Assembly: GCA_014379585.1 (NCBI GenBank)
Contig: JACMLN010000159.1
Coordinates: 1-39,494 of the forward strand
Length of the DNA stretch: 39,494 bases
Direction: 5' to 3'
Source of the DNA: Gloeobacterales cyanobacterium ES-bin-313
GTDB taxonomy: Bacteria; Cyanobacteriota; Cyanobacteriia; Gloeobacterales; Gloeobacteraceae
Shown: piece by piece, positions 2,423 through 35,275 of the stretch
How positions within the stretch are numbered: position 1 is the stretch's first letter
Layout: every line of letters starts with the position of its first letter
Notes under the pieces: model-generated
The model's input: only the letters and a program-made list of their open reading frames with translations
Told to the model about the DNA's origin: nothing
The model's database searches: none
Program-made: the position numbers and the translations under genes

Positions 2423-3388
2423 ATGGCCTTTTGGAATCGGGAGTCTGAGGTTGAGAAACAGACAAGACTCCGGCGCGAACAAGAAAATCAGGACAGCTTA
2501 GAAGCCCTCAAAAATGGTGGACTGCCCCTCCAAGCGGTTCACCGTCTCAAGGAAGCCCGCGCCAACAGCGATCGCTTTTTTACCAGCGATTTAACGAGTA
2601 ACGAACATCTTCTCACCCGCGAAGCAGGCTACGAACCGATTGGCCAGGTCATGGGCAGTGCTTTTTACAAAGTTTCCTACCGGGCGTACTACTCAGGGGG
2701 CTGGGGAAGTACGGGCGAATTAACGCTCCTGAGCCATGCGCAACTGGCTGCACGCGAATTAGCAGTCGATCGCTTGACCCAAGAAGCAAAATTGCTCGGT
2801 GCCCATGGGGTAATCGGAGTACGCCTCAAACTCGGAAATTACGACTGGAGTGCCAATCTGGTCGAATTTACGGCCATCGGTACAGCGATTCGGATTCCTG
2901 GGCGCAAATCTGCGGCTGAACCGTTCACCAGCGATCTCAGTGGTCAAGAATTTTGGCAACTCCATCAATCGGGCTACTGGCCCCGCGCCATTGTGCTTGG
3001 GGTTTGTTCTTACTACATCTACGGAACCTACCAAACTCGTGCTCTGCTCAATAACTATTGGGGAAGTGGGCGCTCCAATCAGGAAATTTCCGAATTCACC
3101 CAGGGTTTCCAGCAGGCACGGCACATCGCTATGGATCGCCTGAAAGCCGATATCCGACGGGCCAAAGCTGAGGGCTGTGTAGGGATGCACATCGATATGG
3201 AAGTGGAAGACATTGAGTACGAACTTAACGATGTCACTTACCACGATCTGTTGGTGCAGTTTATTGCTGTGGGCACGGCAATTTCCCACGATGATCAGCC
3301 CCAGCCACCACCCGCTAAAACATTGACCATGGTCAACTTGAAAGACAAGTCCAAAAGCTTAATCCAGATCGACAACATTCGCGAATAA
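2423..3388 (+). CDS. tandem YbjQ-like (heavy-metal-binding domain) protein, paralogue 1
   Basis: The 321-residue soluble protein contains two copies of a YbjQ/UPF0145-like domain. Copy 1 (about residues 52-160) begins FFTSDLTSNE and ends GAHGVIGVRLKLGNYDWSAN...VEFTAIGTAI; copy 2 (about 167-290) begins PFTSDLSGQEFW and ends FIAVGTAI. The G-x-x-x-V/I-G-V-R...GTA ending is the hallmark of YbjQ-like folds, which assemble into pentamers; the label heavy-metal-binding is a database name without firm biochemistry. A charged N-terminal helix of about 45 residues precedes copy 1. The next gene is a paralogue of the same layout. Copy 2 here is the more divergent half, with an insertion before its C-terminal strands. 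Role unknown. Confidence 0.8.
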   Translation: MAFWNRESEVEKQTRLRREQENQDSLEALKNGGLPLQAVHRLKEARANSDRFFTSDLTSNEHLLTREAGYEPIGQVMGSAFYKVSYRAYYSGGWGSTGELTLLSHAQLAARELAVDRLTQEAKLLGAHGVIGVRLKLGNYDWSANLVEFTAIGTAIRIPGRKSAAEPFTSDLSGQEFWQLHQSGYWPRAIVLGVCSYYIYGTYQTRALLNNYWGSGRSNQEISEFTQGFQQARHIAMDRLKADIRRAKAEGCVGMHIDMEVEDIEYELNDVTYHDLLVQFIAVGTAISHDDQPQPPPAKTLTMVNLKDKSKSLIQIDNIRE

Positions 3389-3399
3389 GAGACAAAACC

Positions 3400-4224
3400 A
3401 TGCCTAACAACAACCAACCCCCCGTTGATCTTCCTGTACATGCCCGCGAACGCCTCTCTGCTATGCGGGGAACACCGGAGCACCGCACACTATTTACCAG
3501 CGATCTGTCGGTAAACGAGTTCTTACTCGTTAAAGAATCGGGCTTCGAACCGGTTGGCTTGGTTCTCGGCAGTTCCATCTACCACATTGGATTCCAGCAG
3601 AGTGCCTGGAGCAAAAACATGGAAATGACTGTGCTCACCCAGGCGATGTACCATGCCCGCGAACTGGCCATGACCCGCATGGAAGAAGAAGCAGACGCTC
3701 TCGGAGCCGACGGCATTATTGGTGTGCGCCTCAAGGTCAAGCGCCTCGACTGGTCTGACGACTTGGCTGAATTTGTTGCCATTGGCACCGCTGTTGTCGC
3801 CAACGAAGGGCATGGAACTTTTCGGACCGTTCACAACAAACCCTTCACCAGTGAGCTTTCAGGGCAAGATTTCTGGACACTCCTCAAAGCGGGCTATCGT
3901 CCGGTCGGATTGGTGATGGGCAACTGTGTCTACCACGTCGCCCACCAAGGTTTCGGGCAGTGGTTTAGTAATCTTGGTCAAAATGTTGAAATGACTAACT
4001 TCACCCAGGCACTCTACGACGCGCGGGAACTGGCCATGGAGCGGATGCAAGCCGAAGCCACCCATCTTCAGGCTGAAGGTATTGTGGGAGTCGATATCCA
4101 CGAAGGCTCCTACGGTTGGAGTAGCCACGTCATTGAGTTCTTCACCGTCGGTACTGCCGTGATCGCCATGCGCGCCGACCATCACATTCCAACGCCTCAA
4201 CTGGTGTTGACAGTCAACGACTAG
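3400..4224 (+). CDS. tandem YbjQ-like (heavy-metal-binding domain) protein, paralogue 2
   Basis: The 274-residue protein is a paralogue of the preceding gene, again with two YbjQ-like copies. Copy 1 (about residues 30-133) runs from LFTSDLSVNEFLL to FVAIGTAV; copy 2 (about 146-260) runs from PFTSELSGQDFWTLLKAGY to FFTVGTAV. Both copies keep the helix ARELAM-x-RM-x-x-EA followed by a G-I-V/I-G-V strand, so this paralogue looks less degenerate than its neighbour. It lies 11 nt downstream and is likely in the same transcript. No secretion signal is seen. Tandem duplication of a domain pair within one operon suggests hetero-oligomers or rings with four domain types, which is inference. Confidence 0.8.
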   Translation: MPNNNQPPVDLPVHARERLSAMRGTPEHRTLFTSDLSVNEFLLVKESGFEPVGLVLGSSIYHIGFQQSAWSKNMEMTVLTQAMYHARELAMTRMEEEADALGADGIIGVRLKVKRLDWSDDLAEFVAIGTAVVANEGHGTFRTVHNKPFTSELSGQDFWTLLKAGYRPVGLVMGNCVYHVAHQGFGQWFSNLGQNVEMTNFTQALYDARELAMERMQAEATHLQAEGIVGVDIHEGSYGWSSHVIEFFTVGTAVIAMRADHHIPTPQLVLTVND

Positions 4225-6566: not shown

Positions 6567-6875
6567 ATGCGTTGGCAATTTCTCTGCCCGTTAGCTGTTT
6601 TGACGCTGGCAATGGCCTCAACCGCCGCCCATGCCGATGAAGATCTTTACAAAATTCTCCGGGAGCCACTTTTTCGGGCTGCACCAAATAGCACTAACTT
6701 CTCCGAGTTGGTGGTAAAACAGCAGGCTGAATTTTCGAATGTGCAAGTACGCCGCTTCGTTACTGAAATGTACGAGCCTGGTCTGATTACCCGCGATATC
6801 CCAACGCCGTTCACGTCTTCTTTGCGTTCACAGCCCTCTTATTACCAAGTGACTGGCGCCGAACCTTCCCGCTAG
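6567..6875 (+). CDS. small secreted hypothetical protein
   Basis: About 102 residues. The ATG at 6567 follows AAGGGG at 6555-6560 and begins a clear signal peptide (basic MRWQF start, hydrophobic core, cleavage expected after A-H-A near residue 23). The same frame is open further upstream across hisIE, but that part is a shadow. The mature part, about 80 residues, has no cysteines or known motifs. I do not recognise the family. It is transcribed divergently from hisIE and convergent with the acidic-protein gene. Confidence 0.65.
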   Translation: MRWQFLCPLAVLTLAMASTAAHADEDLYKILREPLFRAAPNSTNFSELVVKQQAEFSNVQVRRFVTEMYEPGLITRDIPTPFTSSLRSQPSYYQVTGAEPSR

Positions 6876-7023: not shown

Positions 7024-7914
7024 TTAGTTTCCAAAGTACTTTTTCATAAAGCTATCGGGATCCGTGAAGTCAATCGTAGCGAGAGCATTCGGATCATTAA
7101 GCAGCCTCCCCAGTTCACTGTTGGGATCTTCCACGCCAAGGACAAAGGAACTATTTGGATCGTTGAGAGCTTGGGAGATCATGCTATTCGGGTCATCCAA
7201 CGCCAGACTTAAGGAACTATTTTCATCTTCAACCGCCAAGCTAAGTGGACTGTTGGGGTCAAGATTGCTGAACCAACCACCACCATTCGCATTTTCGCTA
7301 CCAAAGAAGTTCTCTTCGTCGCCGTATCCGCCAGCATCTAGCCAATCGTCACTGTAGCCGCCGTCACTCAGCCAATCGTCGCTAAACCAGCTATCACTAT
7401 CCCAGCTACTGCTCCAATCGTCACTAAACCAGTCGTCTTCGAACCAGTCATCCTCCATCCAGCTATCAAAGTCCCAACTCCAATCTTCATAGCTATCCCC
7501 AAAAAAGCTTTCATAAAATTCGCTACTATCGTAGGAATCATCGCCCCAATAATAATTAGAAGCATCCTCTTCATAGATGCCAAAACTATTGACATACTCT
7601 TCATTTTCAGGGTTGGGAACGTAGCTACTCTCCCAGCCAAAAACATCCTCGAAGTCACTGTATCCTGATGTCGAAGCTTCCTCGCTACTCTCACTACTCA
7701 CATCCTCGGCATATTCATCAGAGGCGAAAGGGTTGATGAATTGATCTTCATCGCTTACGTACTCCTGAGTCTCAGAAGCACCACTGTAGTCATACCCCGA
7801 ACTTTCCCCGTCGCTCTCTTCGCTATAGCTTTGATCCTCATTACTTTCTTGTTCGCAGTCGCCTTCCACCACGGTGCTCCGGCACAACAGACAATTTATA
7901 ACTCGGAATGTCAT
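7024..7914 (-). CDS. extremely acidic Trp/Asp- and DPNS-repeat protein, third gene of the SNF2-SWIM operon
   Basis: The 296-residue protein has three zones. Residues 1-20 hold a short Cys-containing start (C8, C11, C20), a possible metal site. Residues 21-215 are low-complexity and rich in Asp, Glu, Ser, Tyr and Trp; within them residues 150-200 form irregular pentads of the kind DDWFS/DDWFE/DDWLS. Residues 219-296 are seven consecutive 11-residue repeats with consensus D-P-N-S-x-[LIF]-x-x-[AG]-[LV]-x, running to the C-terminus. I know no family with this layout. It starts 26 nt after the SWIM gene on the same strand, so it is probably the last gene of that operon. There is no signal peptide. 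The weak SD leaves the start somewhat uncertain. The strong negative charge would suit a DNA mimic, a histone-like-protein or metal binder, or a low-complexity scaffold; all are inference. Confidence 0.72.
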   Translation of the reverse strand: MTFRVINCLLCRSTVVEGDCEQESNEDQSYSEESDGESSGYDYSGASETQEYVSDEDQFINPFASDEYAEDVSSESSEEASTSGYSDFEDVFGWESSYVPNPENEEYVNSFGIYEEDASNYYWGDDSYDSSEFYESFFGDSYEDWSWDFDSWMEDDWFEDDWFSDDWSSSWDSDSWFSDDWLSDGGYSDDWLDAGGYGDEENFFGSENANGGGWFSNLDPNSPLSLAVEDENSSLSLALDDPNSMISQALNDPNSSFVLGVEDPNSELGRLLNDPNALATIDFTDPDSFMKKYFGN

Positions 7915-20364: not shown

Positions 20365-20883
20365 ATGAAAATCCTCGCTGCATTTGCAACTGCCTTTGTT
20401 GGACTGGCACTCATTGCCACTTCTGCTTCAGCTGACCCAACAGGAGATGGCAACTTGTTTGGTGCTGCCGAAGTCTGTGGGATCCCCACTGCAGGTATCC
20501 CTTACACGGATGGTCCTGGGTTCGAATCTGCCCGCCAAAATGCCCTACGTTCGCGACAAGATTGTCAGCAAGTCAGCTATACCGTCGGCCAATTAACGGG
20601 TCGGCAAGCGCGCGGCAACCAATTTAACTACCGCCGCCCCAACCGCGTGGCGCGTGGCAATGGTCAAGGCAGATATAATCCCCAAAGCAATCTCGCTTAC
20701 GCCGCCCCTAGCAATCTCGGCAATTTGTTTGGTGCTGCTCAAGCCTGTGGGATCTCTACGAATGGCATTCCTTTTGTCGGTGGAAGTGCTTTTGAATCTG
20801 CCCGACAAACTGCTTTGCGCTCTCGCCAGGATTGTTCACAGGTTGCCTTTACGGTTTCCAAAACTGCTCGCCGTCCTTACTAG
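20365..20883 (+). CDS. secreted protein with two Cys-containing repeats
   Basis: 172 residues with a signal peptide (cleavage near A23). The mature part has two copies of a module of about 45 residues: residues 29-74 and 119-164. Consensus GNLFGAA-x-x-CGI-x-T-x-GIP...FESARQ-x-ALRSRQDC-x-QV. Each copy has two cysteines, C38/C67 and C128/C157, with the same 29-residue spacing, so intra-module disulfides are likely. A linker rich in Asn, Arg and Gln separates them. I do not recognise the family. A near-perfect SD AAGGAGGT (20353-20360) precedes ATG 20365, suggesting high expression. Confidence 0.75.
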   Translation: MKILAAFATAFVGLALIATSASADPTGDGNLFGAAEVCGIPTAGIPYTDGPGFESARQNALRSRQDCQQVSYTVGQLTGRQARGNQFNYRRPNRVARGNGQGRYNPQSNLAYAAPSNLGNLFGAAQACGISTNGIPFVGGSAFESARQTALRSRQDCSQVAFTVSKTARRPY

Positions 20884-32653: not shown

Positions 32654-35275
32654 ATGTTGCAATTTTCCAGCAAACAGAGAAAGTTTTTTGTGCGCCCAGA
32701 AAGCTTCTTTCTGCCACTACTTTCTCTTATAGTTCTTTTAGGCATGTGCTTGCCTAGTATGGCCGCAGCGACTTTTCGCGCGAATAGTGGTGGTGCCCAA
32801 TATACAAGCAGCACCACAGGTACCTGGAACGCCGACAGTAGTTACACTGGCAGTTCTACAACCTACAGTAATACCAACACAATCGCCAATACCGCTGACC
32901 CCAAACTTTATCAGTCAGAACGGTGGGGCAGTTCCTTTGGATACAGTGTCCCAGTCGCCAATGGTTCCTATACGCTCAATCTCTACTTCGCTGAGATTTT
33001 CTACACCAGCACGGGTAAGCGGGTCTTCAATGTCGCGGCTCAAGGTAAAACAGTCTTGAGTAACTTCGATATCGTTGCAGCCGCAGGTGGGGCGAATCGA
33101 GCAGTTGTCAAAAGTATCCCAGTGACGGTTACGAACGGAGTTTTGAGTGTTAACCTCACAAGTGTCGTGGGCGATGCAAAAATTTCGGCAGTTGAGCTAG
33201 TTGCAGTAGCAAGCACTCCACCTGTGACTACTTCATCAGCGAGTTTTCGTGCCAATAGTGGTGGTGCCCAATATACAAGCAGCACCACAGGTACCTGGAA
33301 AGCTGACAGTAGTTACACTGGCAACGGTTGGGGCTACAGCAATTCCAACACCATTGCCAATACTGCTGACCAAAAACTTTACCAATCGGAGCGCACAGGC
33401 AGTTCCTTTGGCTATAGCATTCCACTTGTGAATGGCTCCTACACGCTCAATCTCTACTTTGCAGAGATTTTTTACTCAAGCACCGGGCAACGAGTTTTTA
33501 ATGTTGCAGCCCAAGGCAAGACCGTTTTGGGCAACTTTGACATCGTTGCAGCTGCAGGCGGAGCCAACCGAGCGATTGTCAAAAGTATTCCTGTGACGGT
33601 GACGAATGGGGTTCTGAGTGTCAATCTCACTGGCGTAGTCGCTAGTCCAAAAATTTCCGCAATCGAAGTTGTAGGAGCAGGGAGTGCTCCACCGCCGCCA
33701 CCGCCTGTTCCCACACCTGTAACGGTGACGTTAAGCCCCATCGCCAATAGCTCTGCTGTCTCAGGGGTGATCTACCAGCAAGCGACGACCTCTTCCCCGG
33801 TAGATTCAGTCCTTTTCTACGTCGATGGCAGTTTAGTCAACACAGCAACAACATCCCCCTACTATCTAGGTGGTACGACCAATGGACAACCCAACGGTTA
33901 TAGTACAGCGAGTCTTTCGCCAGGGCTGCATACACTGCAAGCCATAGCAACCGTTGGTAGTACGACCTACGCTTCATCGACGTTGAGCTTTACGGTTGCG
34001 CCTCCCAGTCCTACAGGCAGCCTGTATCCGATCCCATTTAGTAGCCAGTACATCGGCCCATCGCGTTCAGTCACCCAGACGACTTCTCAGGTCATGGATG
34101 CAGTCGGTGCGCCTGGATCGCCAAGCAACCCGAACTTGTCGAACTGGAGTCCAGTAACCTGGGCGAGTCCTCAGGCTGCTAGCAATTTTACAAACCAAAT
34201 GGTGGCTTGGTACCTCGCAAATGGTATCCAACCGACGATCAATGCCAACGATACCCGCAGAGTCCAAGTCTACTCTGGAGTGACCTACGGGCCATCCTAT
34301 GCGCCTCGTGATGGCATCGACAAAGATGCGGCAGACAACAAGCTGTTACCCAATGAAAGCGACTGGCCACATCTACGAGTACCCTCAAGTGCCTTTGGGT
34401 ATGGTGGCAACCCTATGCCTTATCCCGTTATGCCCGCTACGGCAGCAGGACAACCTGGGTGGTGGTACTACGTCGGCTCTGCCTCGGAACCGCTTAGAGA
34501 CGTTTGGAACCATACGCTTAGTTATGGGAATACCACCCAACAATTTACGAGCGTTTATGGCTTGGTTGGCAAAATTCGTTACACAATTCCCTCGAATTAC
34601 GTACCCGTGTATCGGCAAAGTGGAGACAATGCAGCAATTATTGCTGGCCCACAATCCAACGGTGTTGGAGCGATGACAGAGTTGTACCATGCTTTAGAAG
34701 GTGGTGGTAGCTACGCTGGAACCATCGGGACGCAGTACAACAACGGTTTGCAGTCATACCCATACAAGCTTGAAGATGGTAGCAGTTCTGCTTCGAAAGA
34801 AAAGTACGCAGCAAAACTGATTACCTCTCAAGATGCTGCCAAAGTTGCAAGTGGGGAGATCAAATTCTTCGATCACCCGATTGGTTTTGCGGTCTACCAA
34901 CATTTTTTTGCTGTCGTACCTGCAAGCCAAAGCCGTGACATGGGTATGGGCAGTAAAGCAAGCACTGGTTGGGGCTGGCTCCCCTACGGTGGACGGGTAC
35001 GCTTGATGCTCAGTGACGATGAGATCGATGCTCTCACATCCAATCTCATGGCTCGCGCCATCGCCAAAACCTTTAACCGCTATGGTGGGGTTGCTATGGA
35101 CGGGACTGGCTGGGATCAGCAGCAAGTATCGATACGTGCCTCTGTTCTCACATCAGAGTTGACCCCCTTTGGTGGCGAGAGTGCTGTGAATTCCGAACTG
35201 AACAACCTCTTTAATACTTCACAGGTCAAACAAAACTGGGCACTGGTCATTCCTCCCATGTGGCCAACCAAATAG
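32654..35275 (+). CDS. secreted protein with two malectin domains, an Ig-like domain and an unknown C-terminal domain
   Basis: 873 residues. A long basic N-terminus leads to a hydrophobic signal segment (about 18-38, ending PSMAAA). Two malectin-like carbohydrate-binding domains follow (about 39-185 and 196-339; each FRANSGGAQY...LYQSER...GSYTLNLYFAEIF...GKRVFNVAAQGKTV), near 84% identical by my count. A Pro-rich linker leads to a bacterial Ig-like domain (about 355-450). The last 420 residues are rich in Asn, Tyr, Ser and Trp and I do not recognise them. Malectin domains bind glucose-rich glycans, so a role on exopolysaccharide is plausible. GGGGAAG precedes the ATG by about 3 nt. The gene stands alone, between AT-rich gap and terminator. 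Confidence 0.85.
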   Translation: MLQFSSKQRKFFVRPESFFLPLLSLIVLLGMCLPSMAAATFRANSGGAQYTSSTTGTWNADSSYTGSSTTYSNTNTIANTADPKLYQSERWGSSFGYSVPVANGSYTLNLYFAEIFYTSTGKRVFNVAAQGKTVLSNFDIVAAAGGANRAVVKSIPVTVTNGVLSVNLTSVVGDAKISAVELVAVASTPPVTTSSASFRANSGGAQYTSSTTGTWKADSSYTGNGWGYSNSNTIANTADQKLYQSERTGSSFGYSIPLVNGSYTLNLYFAEIFYSSTGQRVFNVAAQGKTVLGNFDIVAAAGGANRAIVKSIPVTVTNGVLSVNLTGVVASPKISAIEVVGAGSAPPPPPPVPTPVTVTLSPIANSSAVSGVIYQQATTSSPVDSVLFYVDGSLVNTATTSPYYLGGTTNGQPNGYSTASLSPGLHTLQAIATVGSTTYASSTLSFTVAPPSPTGSLYPIPFSSQYIGPSRSVTQTTSQVMDAVGAPGSPSNPNLSNWSPVTWASPQAASNFTNQMVAWYLANGIQPTINANDTRRVQVYSGVTYGPSYAPRDGIDKDAADNKLLPNESDWPHLRVPSSAFGYGGNPMPYPVMPATAAGQPGWWYYVGSASEPLRDVWNHTLSYGNTTQQFTSVYGLVGKIRYTIPSNYVPVYRQSGDNAAIIAGPQSNGVGAMTELYHALEGGGSYAGTIGTQYNNGLQSYPYKLEDGSSSASKEKYAAKLITSQDAAKVASGEIKFFDHPIGFAVYQHFFAVVPASQSRDMGMGSKASTGWGWLPYGGRVRLMLSDDEIDALTSNLMARAIAKTFNRYGGVAMDGTGWDQQQVSIRASVLTSELTPFGGESAVNSELNNLFNTSQVKQNWALVIPPMWPTK
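32783..33300 (+). repeat. 47-bp exact direct repeat within tandem malectin domains
   Basis: Bases 32783-32829 and 33254-33300 are identical over 47 nt, at an offset of 471 bp (157 codons). The surrounding domains are also very similar, so the second malectin domain arose by a recent in-frame tandem duplication. Confidence 0.9.

Follow-up and report, generated by a model that had tools for sequence, protein, structure and literature searches.

A tandem array of seven 11-residue DPNS units in an apparently orphan acidic protein from an early-branching cyanobacterium

The window analysed here, by which we mean the whole stretch of 39,494 nucleotides, contains a gene for a strongly acidic protein with seven gapless 11-residue units at its C-terminal end, most of them opening with Asp-Pro-Asn-Ser (DPNS), and the pattern of codon conservation within this array shows that the repeats are maintained by selection at the protein level (Table 1). 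Our preferred reading, which we hold tentatively and at somewhat less than an even chance, is that the protein is a polyanion, lineage-restricted and for the most part disordered, which would use several amphipathic segments at its C-terminus, each capped by DPNS, for multivalent binding.

Table 1. Coordinates of the acidic repeat gene, its segments and the adjoining hairpin within the window
Feature	Position	Strand	Remarks
Acidic repeat protein ORF	7024..7914	(-)	296 codons/amino acids; ORF listing and codon usage
N-terminal acidic segment with spaced Tyr/Phe/Trp	7492..7914	(-)	without family match
Acidic Trp-rich segment with DDW[FL] array (5- and 10-residue units)	7300..7491	(-)	about residues 142-205; 15- and 30-bp repeats
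DPNS array: seven 11-residue units of 33 bp	7030..7260	(-)	residues 219-295, gapless
Stable 58-nt hairpin directly 3' of the stop codon	6966..7023	(-)	z -4.55; single copy in genome

The units read DPNSPLSLAVE, DENSSLSLALD, DPNSMISQALN and DPNSSFVLGVE (1 to 4), followed by DPNSELGRLLN, DPNALATIDFT and DPDSFMKKYFG (5 to 7). Within residues 201-296 the sequence matches itself at 29 positions at a lag of 11 and at 25 at a lag of 22, while the best value for any lag from 5 to 39 in 20,000 shuffles was 20. An earlier note, made from the sequence alone, had thus counted the units correctly and placed them at the right coordinates, except that it ran the array exactly to the stop codon; a single Asn (residue 296) stands between unit 7 and the stop. 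Its consensus, D-P-N-S-x-[LIF]-x-x-[AG]-[LV]-x, is broadly right and slightly too tight, as units 2, 5, 6 and 7 depart from it. Unit 2 has Glu for Pro, unit 6 has Ala at positions 4 and 6, and unit 7 has Asp at position 3 and Met at position 6; across units 1-7, the residues run L, L, I, F, L, A, M at position 6 and A, A, A, G, L, D, Y at position 9. In the DNA the repeat can barely be made out: adjacent units have 12-19 of 33 bases in common and Tandem Repeats Finder at score 30 did not report it.

Adjacent units agree at 48% of first and 62% of second codon positions, and at 21%, the background level, of third positions. At unit positions 1 and 3 the wobble base is a pyrimidine in 14 of 14 cases, matching the need of the two-fold Asp and Asn codons, and the third bases of the proline codons are C, G and A. 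This pattern alone cannot pick the strand, because a plus-strand ORF (7064-7357) overlaps the gene and shares its wobble position. The strand is chosen instead by codon choice: the codon-usage score per codon is 0.049 for the acidic repeat gene (neighbouring genes range from -0.014 to 0.123), against a maximum of 0.015 over 2,000 synonymous recodings of it drawn at random, and -0.214 for the plus-strand ORF. With first and second positions kept, third positions at background and codon usage fitting the minus strand, the ORF is most likely a real gene and the duplications behind the array are most likely old. The earlier suggestion that the array grew by tandem duplication is supported. That the ORF is untranslated and its repeat a chance by-product of DNA duplication is therefore very improbable; a homologue was found nowhere and a search for a sigma-70-like promoter close to the gene returned none, as such a reading would expect, but it accounts neither for wobble saturation beside conserved first and second positions nor for a codon usage exceeding that of every recoding. 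Translation could start at ATG 7914 or, 14 codons in, at GTG 7872, with GGAG at 7880-7877. The hairpin beyond the stop codon sits between convergent genes and is a probable transcript end; being single-copy, it is ruled out as a repeated element.

The protein as a whole has a net charge of -72 and a pI of 4.05, and 43% of its residues are Ser, Asp or Glu. Most of the charge sits in residues 1-218, the DPNS array contributing only -11. The DDW[FL] array, which spans 7316-7462 (-), remains detectable in the DNA and is the younger of the two, the DPNS array being older as judged by the wobble-base saturation of its units, so that one gene records internal duplication in two rounds. By eye the sequence shows no signal peptide, and the protein is probably cytoplasmic.

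Searches for relatives returned nothing convincing. The full protein had no match in 58 other relatives, including eight other genomes of the host's order, nor in genome contigs, viral contigs, plasmids or phages; no family in Pfam, NCBIfam, PHROGs or PADLOC scored above its cut-off, and no PDB relative was found. The C-terminus alone, run against 390 genomes of the class, gave chance matches only. The best of these (E 0.008) lies inside an Ogt-like methyltransferase ORF, and a second weak match in the host genome, judged by eye, comes from a DPNS that occurs by chance in a prolyl-oligopeptidase-like enzyme. The strict unit pattern, hydrophobic positions included, was GAYCCNAAYWSNNNNNTNNNNNNNGSNNTNNNNGAYCCNAAYWSN; in 386 genomes of the phylum, a strict two-unit DNA pattern was present in the acidic repeat gene only. 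In viral contigs, the unit pattern relaxed at its [A/G] position gave one match, a 43-aa frame, which we rejected, and a DPN-x8-DPN-x8-DPN scan of genome contigs, which specifies no hydrophobic positions, gave unrelated repeats only among the matches listed. Nothing relevant was found in the literature on DPNS or 11-residue bacterial repeats. Across the libraries searched, the DPNS unit thus fits none of the described families, in line with the earlier note. That note had also taken the lack of a homologue in relatives as grounds for doubting the repeat. None was found in relatives, but the repeat stays real, since the codon evidence within the array shows protein-level selection; what the absence suggests is that the gene is an orphan, with no recognisable homologue in sister lineages among compared genomes that lie outside the host's genus, and known so far from one early-branching cyanobacterium.

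Averaged over the units, hydrophobicity peaks at position 6 and again at position 10. The hydrophobic moment of the averaged unit is greatest near 100 degrees, the value of a helix. Taken singly, units 3, 5 and 7 are helix-like and units 1, 2, 4 and 6 more strand-like than helix-like, which makes a uniform helix repeat doubtful. AlphaFold2, run without homologues, gave a pLDDT of 43 for the full protein and 57 for the repeats alone (pTM 0.33); in both runs units 3, 5 and 7 contain short helices and the remainder is mostly unstructured. No PDB fold matched the repeat model with E below 0.001. Confidence is too low for these models to support any particular fold, and low pLDDT without homologues is not proof of disorder. 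The solenoid or stacked helix-turn arrangement proposed earlier is accordingly not established.

The multivalent, disordered reading draws on the exact period, the protein-level constraint and the minus-strand codon usage, on the hydrophobic positions 6 and 10 with their helical moment and the predicted helices, and on the high net charge of a protein with no visible signal peptide. Each unit would form a short segment of amphipathic character, in many cases a two-turn helix initiated by its D-P-N-S cap, with positions 6 and 10 supplying the hydrophobic residues; seven such segments in series could bind a partner, or the protein itself, multivalently, with avidity toward a hydrophobic groove or toward one another, and the acidic, aromatic N-terminal two thirds might act as a soluble sticker-and-spacer tail that adds weak contacts. 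The chief structural alternative, which we consider unlikely, is that the C-terminus folds into a small, compact solenoid built on a 22-residue beta-alpha super-repeat, with DPNS at the corner turns. Units would pair as 2+3, 4+5 and 6+7, their moments alternating between strand-like (2, 4, 6) and helix-like (3, 5, 7); mean BLOSUM62 scores between units favour lag 2 (23.6) over lag 1 (18.7), and the AlphaFold2 repeat model contains an isolated bridge linking residues of units 2 and 6. The alternation was, however, spotted post hoc and is statistically weak, since shuffling the unit order reached it in 9% of cases and shuffling columns in 3%. The pLDDT and pTM are low, no PDB fold matched, and a hydrophobic core of sufficient size is not evident. 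The bolder version, in which the paired units form a new repeat fold, a 22-residue beta-alpha super-repeat that arose in a single early-branching cyanobacterial lineage, and the acidic aromatic tail drives the formation of condensates, strikes us as improbable.

Function might also lie mainly in charge, the protein being a polyanion that would bind cations or basic proteins, or act as a DNA mimic, with the repeats secondary. The net charge and the abundance of Ser, Asp and Glu suit this idea, as does the proximity of the SWIM and SNF2 genes, whose families are related to nucleic acids. We consider it unlikely, slightly more so than the solenoid. The repeats carry little of the charge, keep their hydrophobic positions and are not EF-hand loops, and the neighbourhood is not conserved: the SWIM and SNF2 genes persist in the host's family (SWIM identity 71-75%), but in five of five family relatives no similar gene follows SWIM, and an operon with these genes was rejected. 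Least probable of the functional readings is an STI1/DP-like client-binding domain, a groove of short Asp-Pro-started helices holding hydrophobic helices. The C-terminus gave a marginal Pfam match to PF23195 (Ubiquilin-1-like, E 0.013), and in ubiquilin STI1 domains conserved prolines are placed in short inter-helix turns (PMC13083928), but the match covers 16 residues only, scores 15.6 bits against a curated cut-off of 27, and disappears when the whole protein is scanned.

Several other features of the window deserve mention. PADLOC matches of the SNF2 protein (DpdE, ZorD) fall mainly in its helicase half, and no defence system is claimed. A small protein of 102 aa encoded at 6567-6875 (+) begins like a signal peptide and falls in no Pfam family; four other genomes of the order encode distant relatives of it (best E 1.8e-14), and the four genomes of genus g2 have none. 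A secreted-looking 172-aa protein without a Pfam family (20365-20883, +) carries a cysteine-containing segment twice (NLFGAAxxCGI...FESARQxALRSRQDCxQV). Two Malectin stretches in one protein (32654-35275, +) stem from a 471-bp tandem duplication, and an adjacent pair of related genes (2423-4224, +), the first with a YbjQ match (PF01906), contains by eye a similar domain in two copies each.

An orphan protein with clean internal repeats is a chance to watch protein architecture arise. If folded, the 11-mers would count as a new repeat module of very small size; if not, this would be another lineage-restricted acidic disordered protein, and a lineage-restricted, internally duplicated, acidic low-complexity protein is not new as a kind. 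Among known systems, TPR repeats carry DPN (LDPNNAEA) at the turn preceding a helix; their period is 34 residues rather than 11, and the TPR profile was unmatched. The same holds for helical solenoid repeats generally, whose two-helix units span 30-40 residues and gave no Pfam or NCBIfam match. The EF-hand/dockerin loop D-x-[DN]-x-[DG]-G-x-I-x-x-x-E does not fit either, as DPNS position 6 is never Gly and Pfam gave no match. Low-complexity bacterial DPN repeats (DPNTGQPYPPV, DPNNPDPNKPV) share the DPN spacing of 11 but, among the matches listed, are mostly Pro/Gly/Gln-rich and lack the hydrophobic positions 6 and 10. The STI1/DP (aspartate-proline) domains of ubiquilin, Sgt2 and Hop resemble the proposed form of the array in their short amphipathic helices with Asn/Asp-Pro turns between; they differ in belonging to eukaryotic co-chaperones and in having no gapless 11-residue array, and the PF23195 match is far under its cut-off. 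The repeats of alpha-synuclein, group 3 LEA proteins and apolipoproteins, finally, have a period of 11, are amphipathic and are disordered when free. Their helices are lysine-rich and near-continuous and lack a D-P opening in each unit, and the DPNS protein gave no family match. The period of 11 is shared; the averaged DPNS unit has its highest moment at 100 degrees, but four of the seven units are strand-like.
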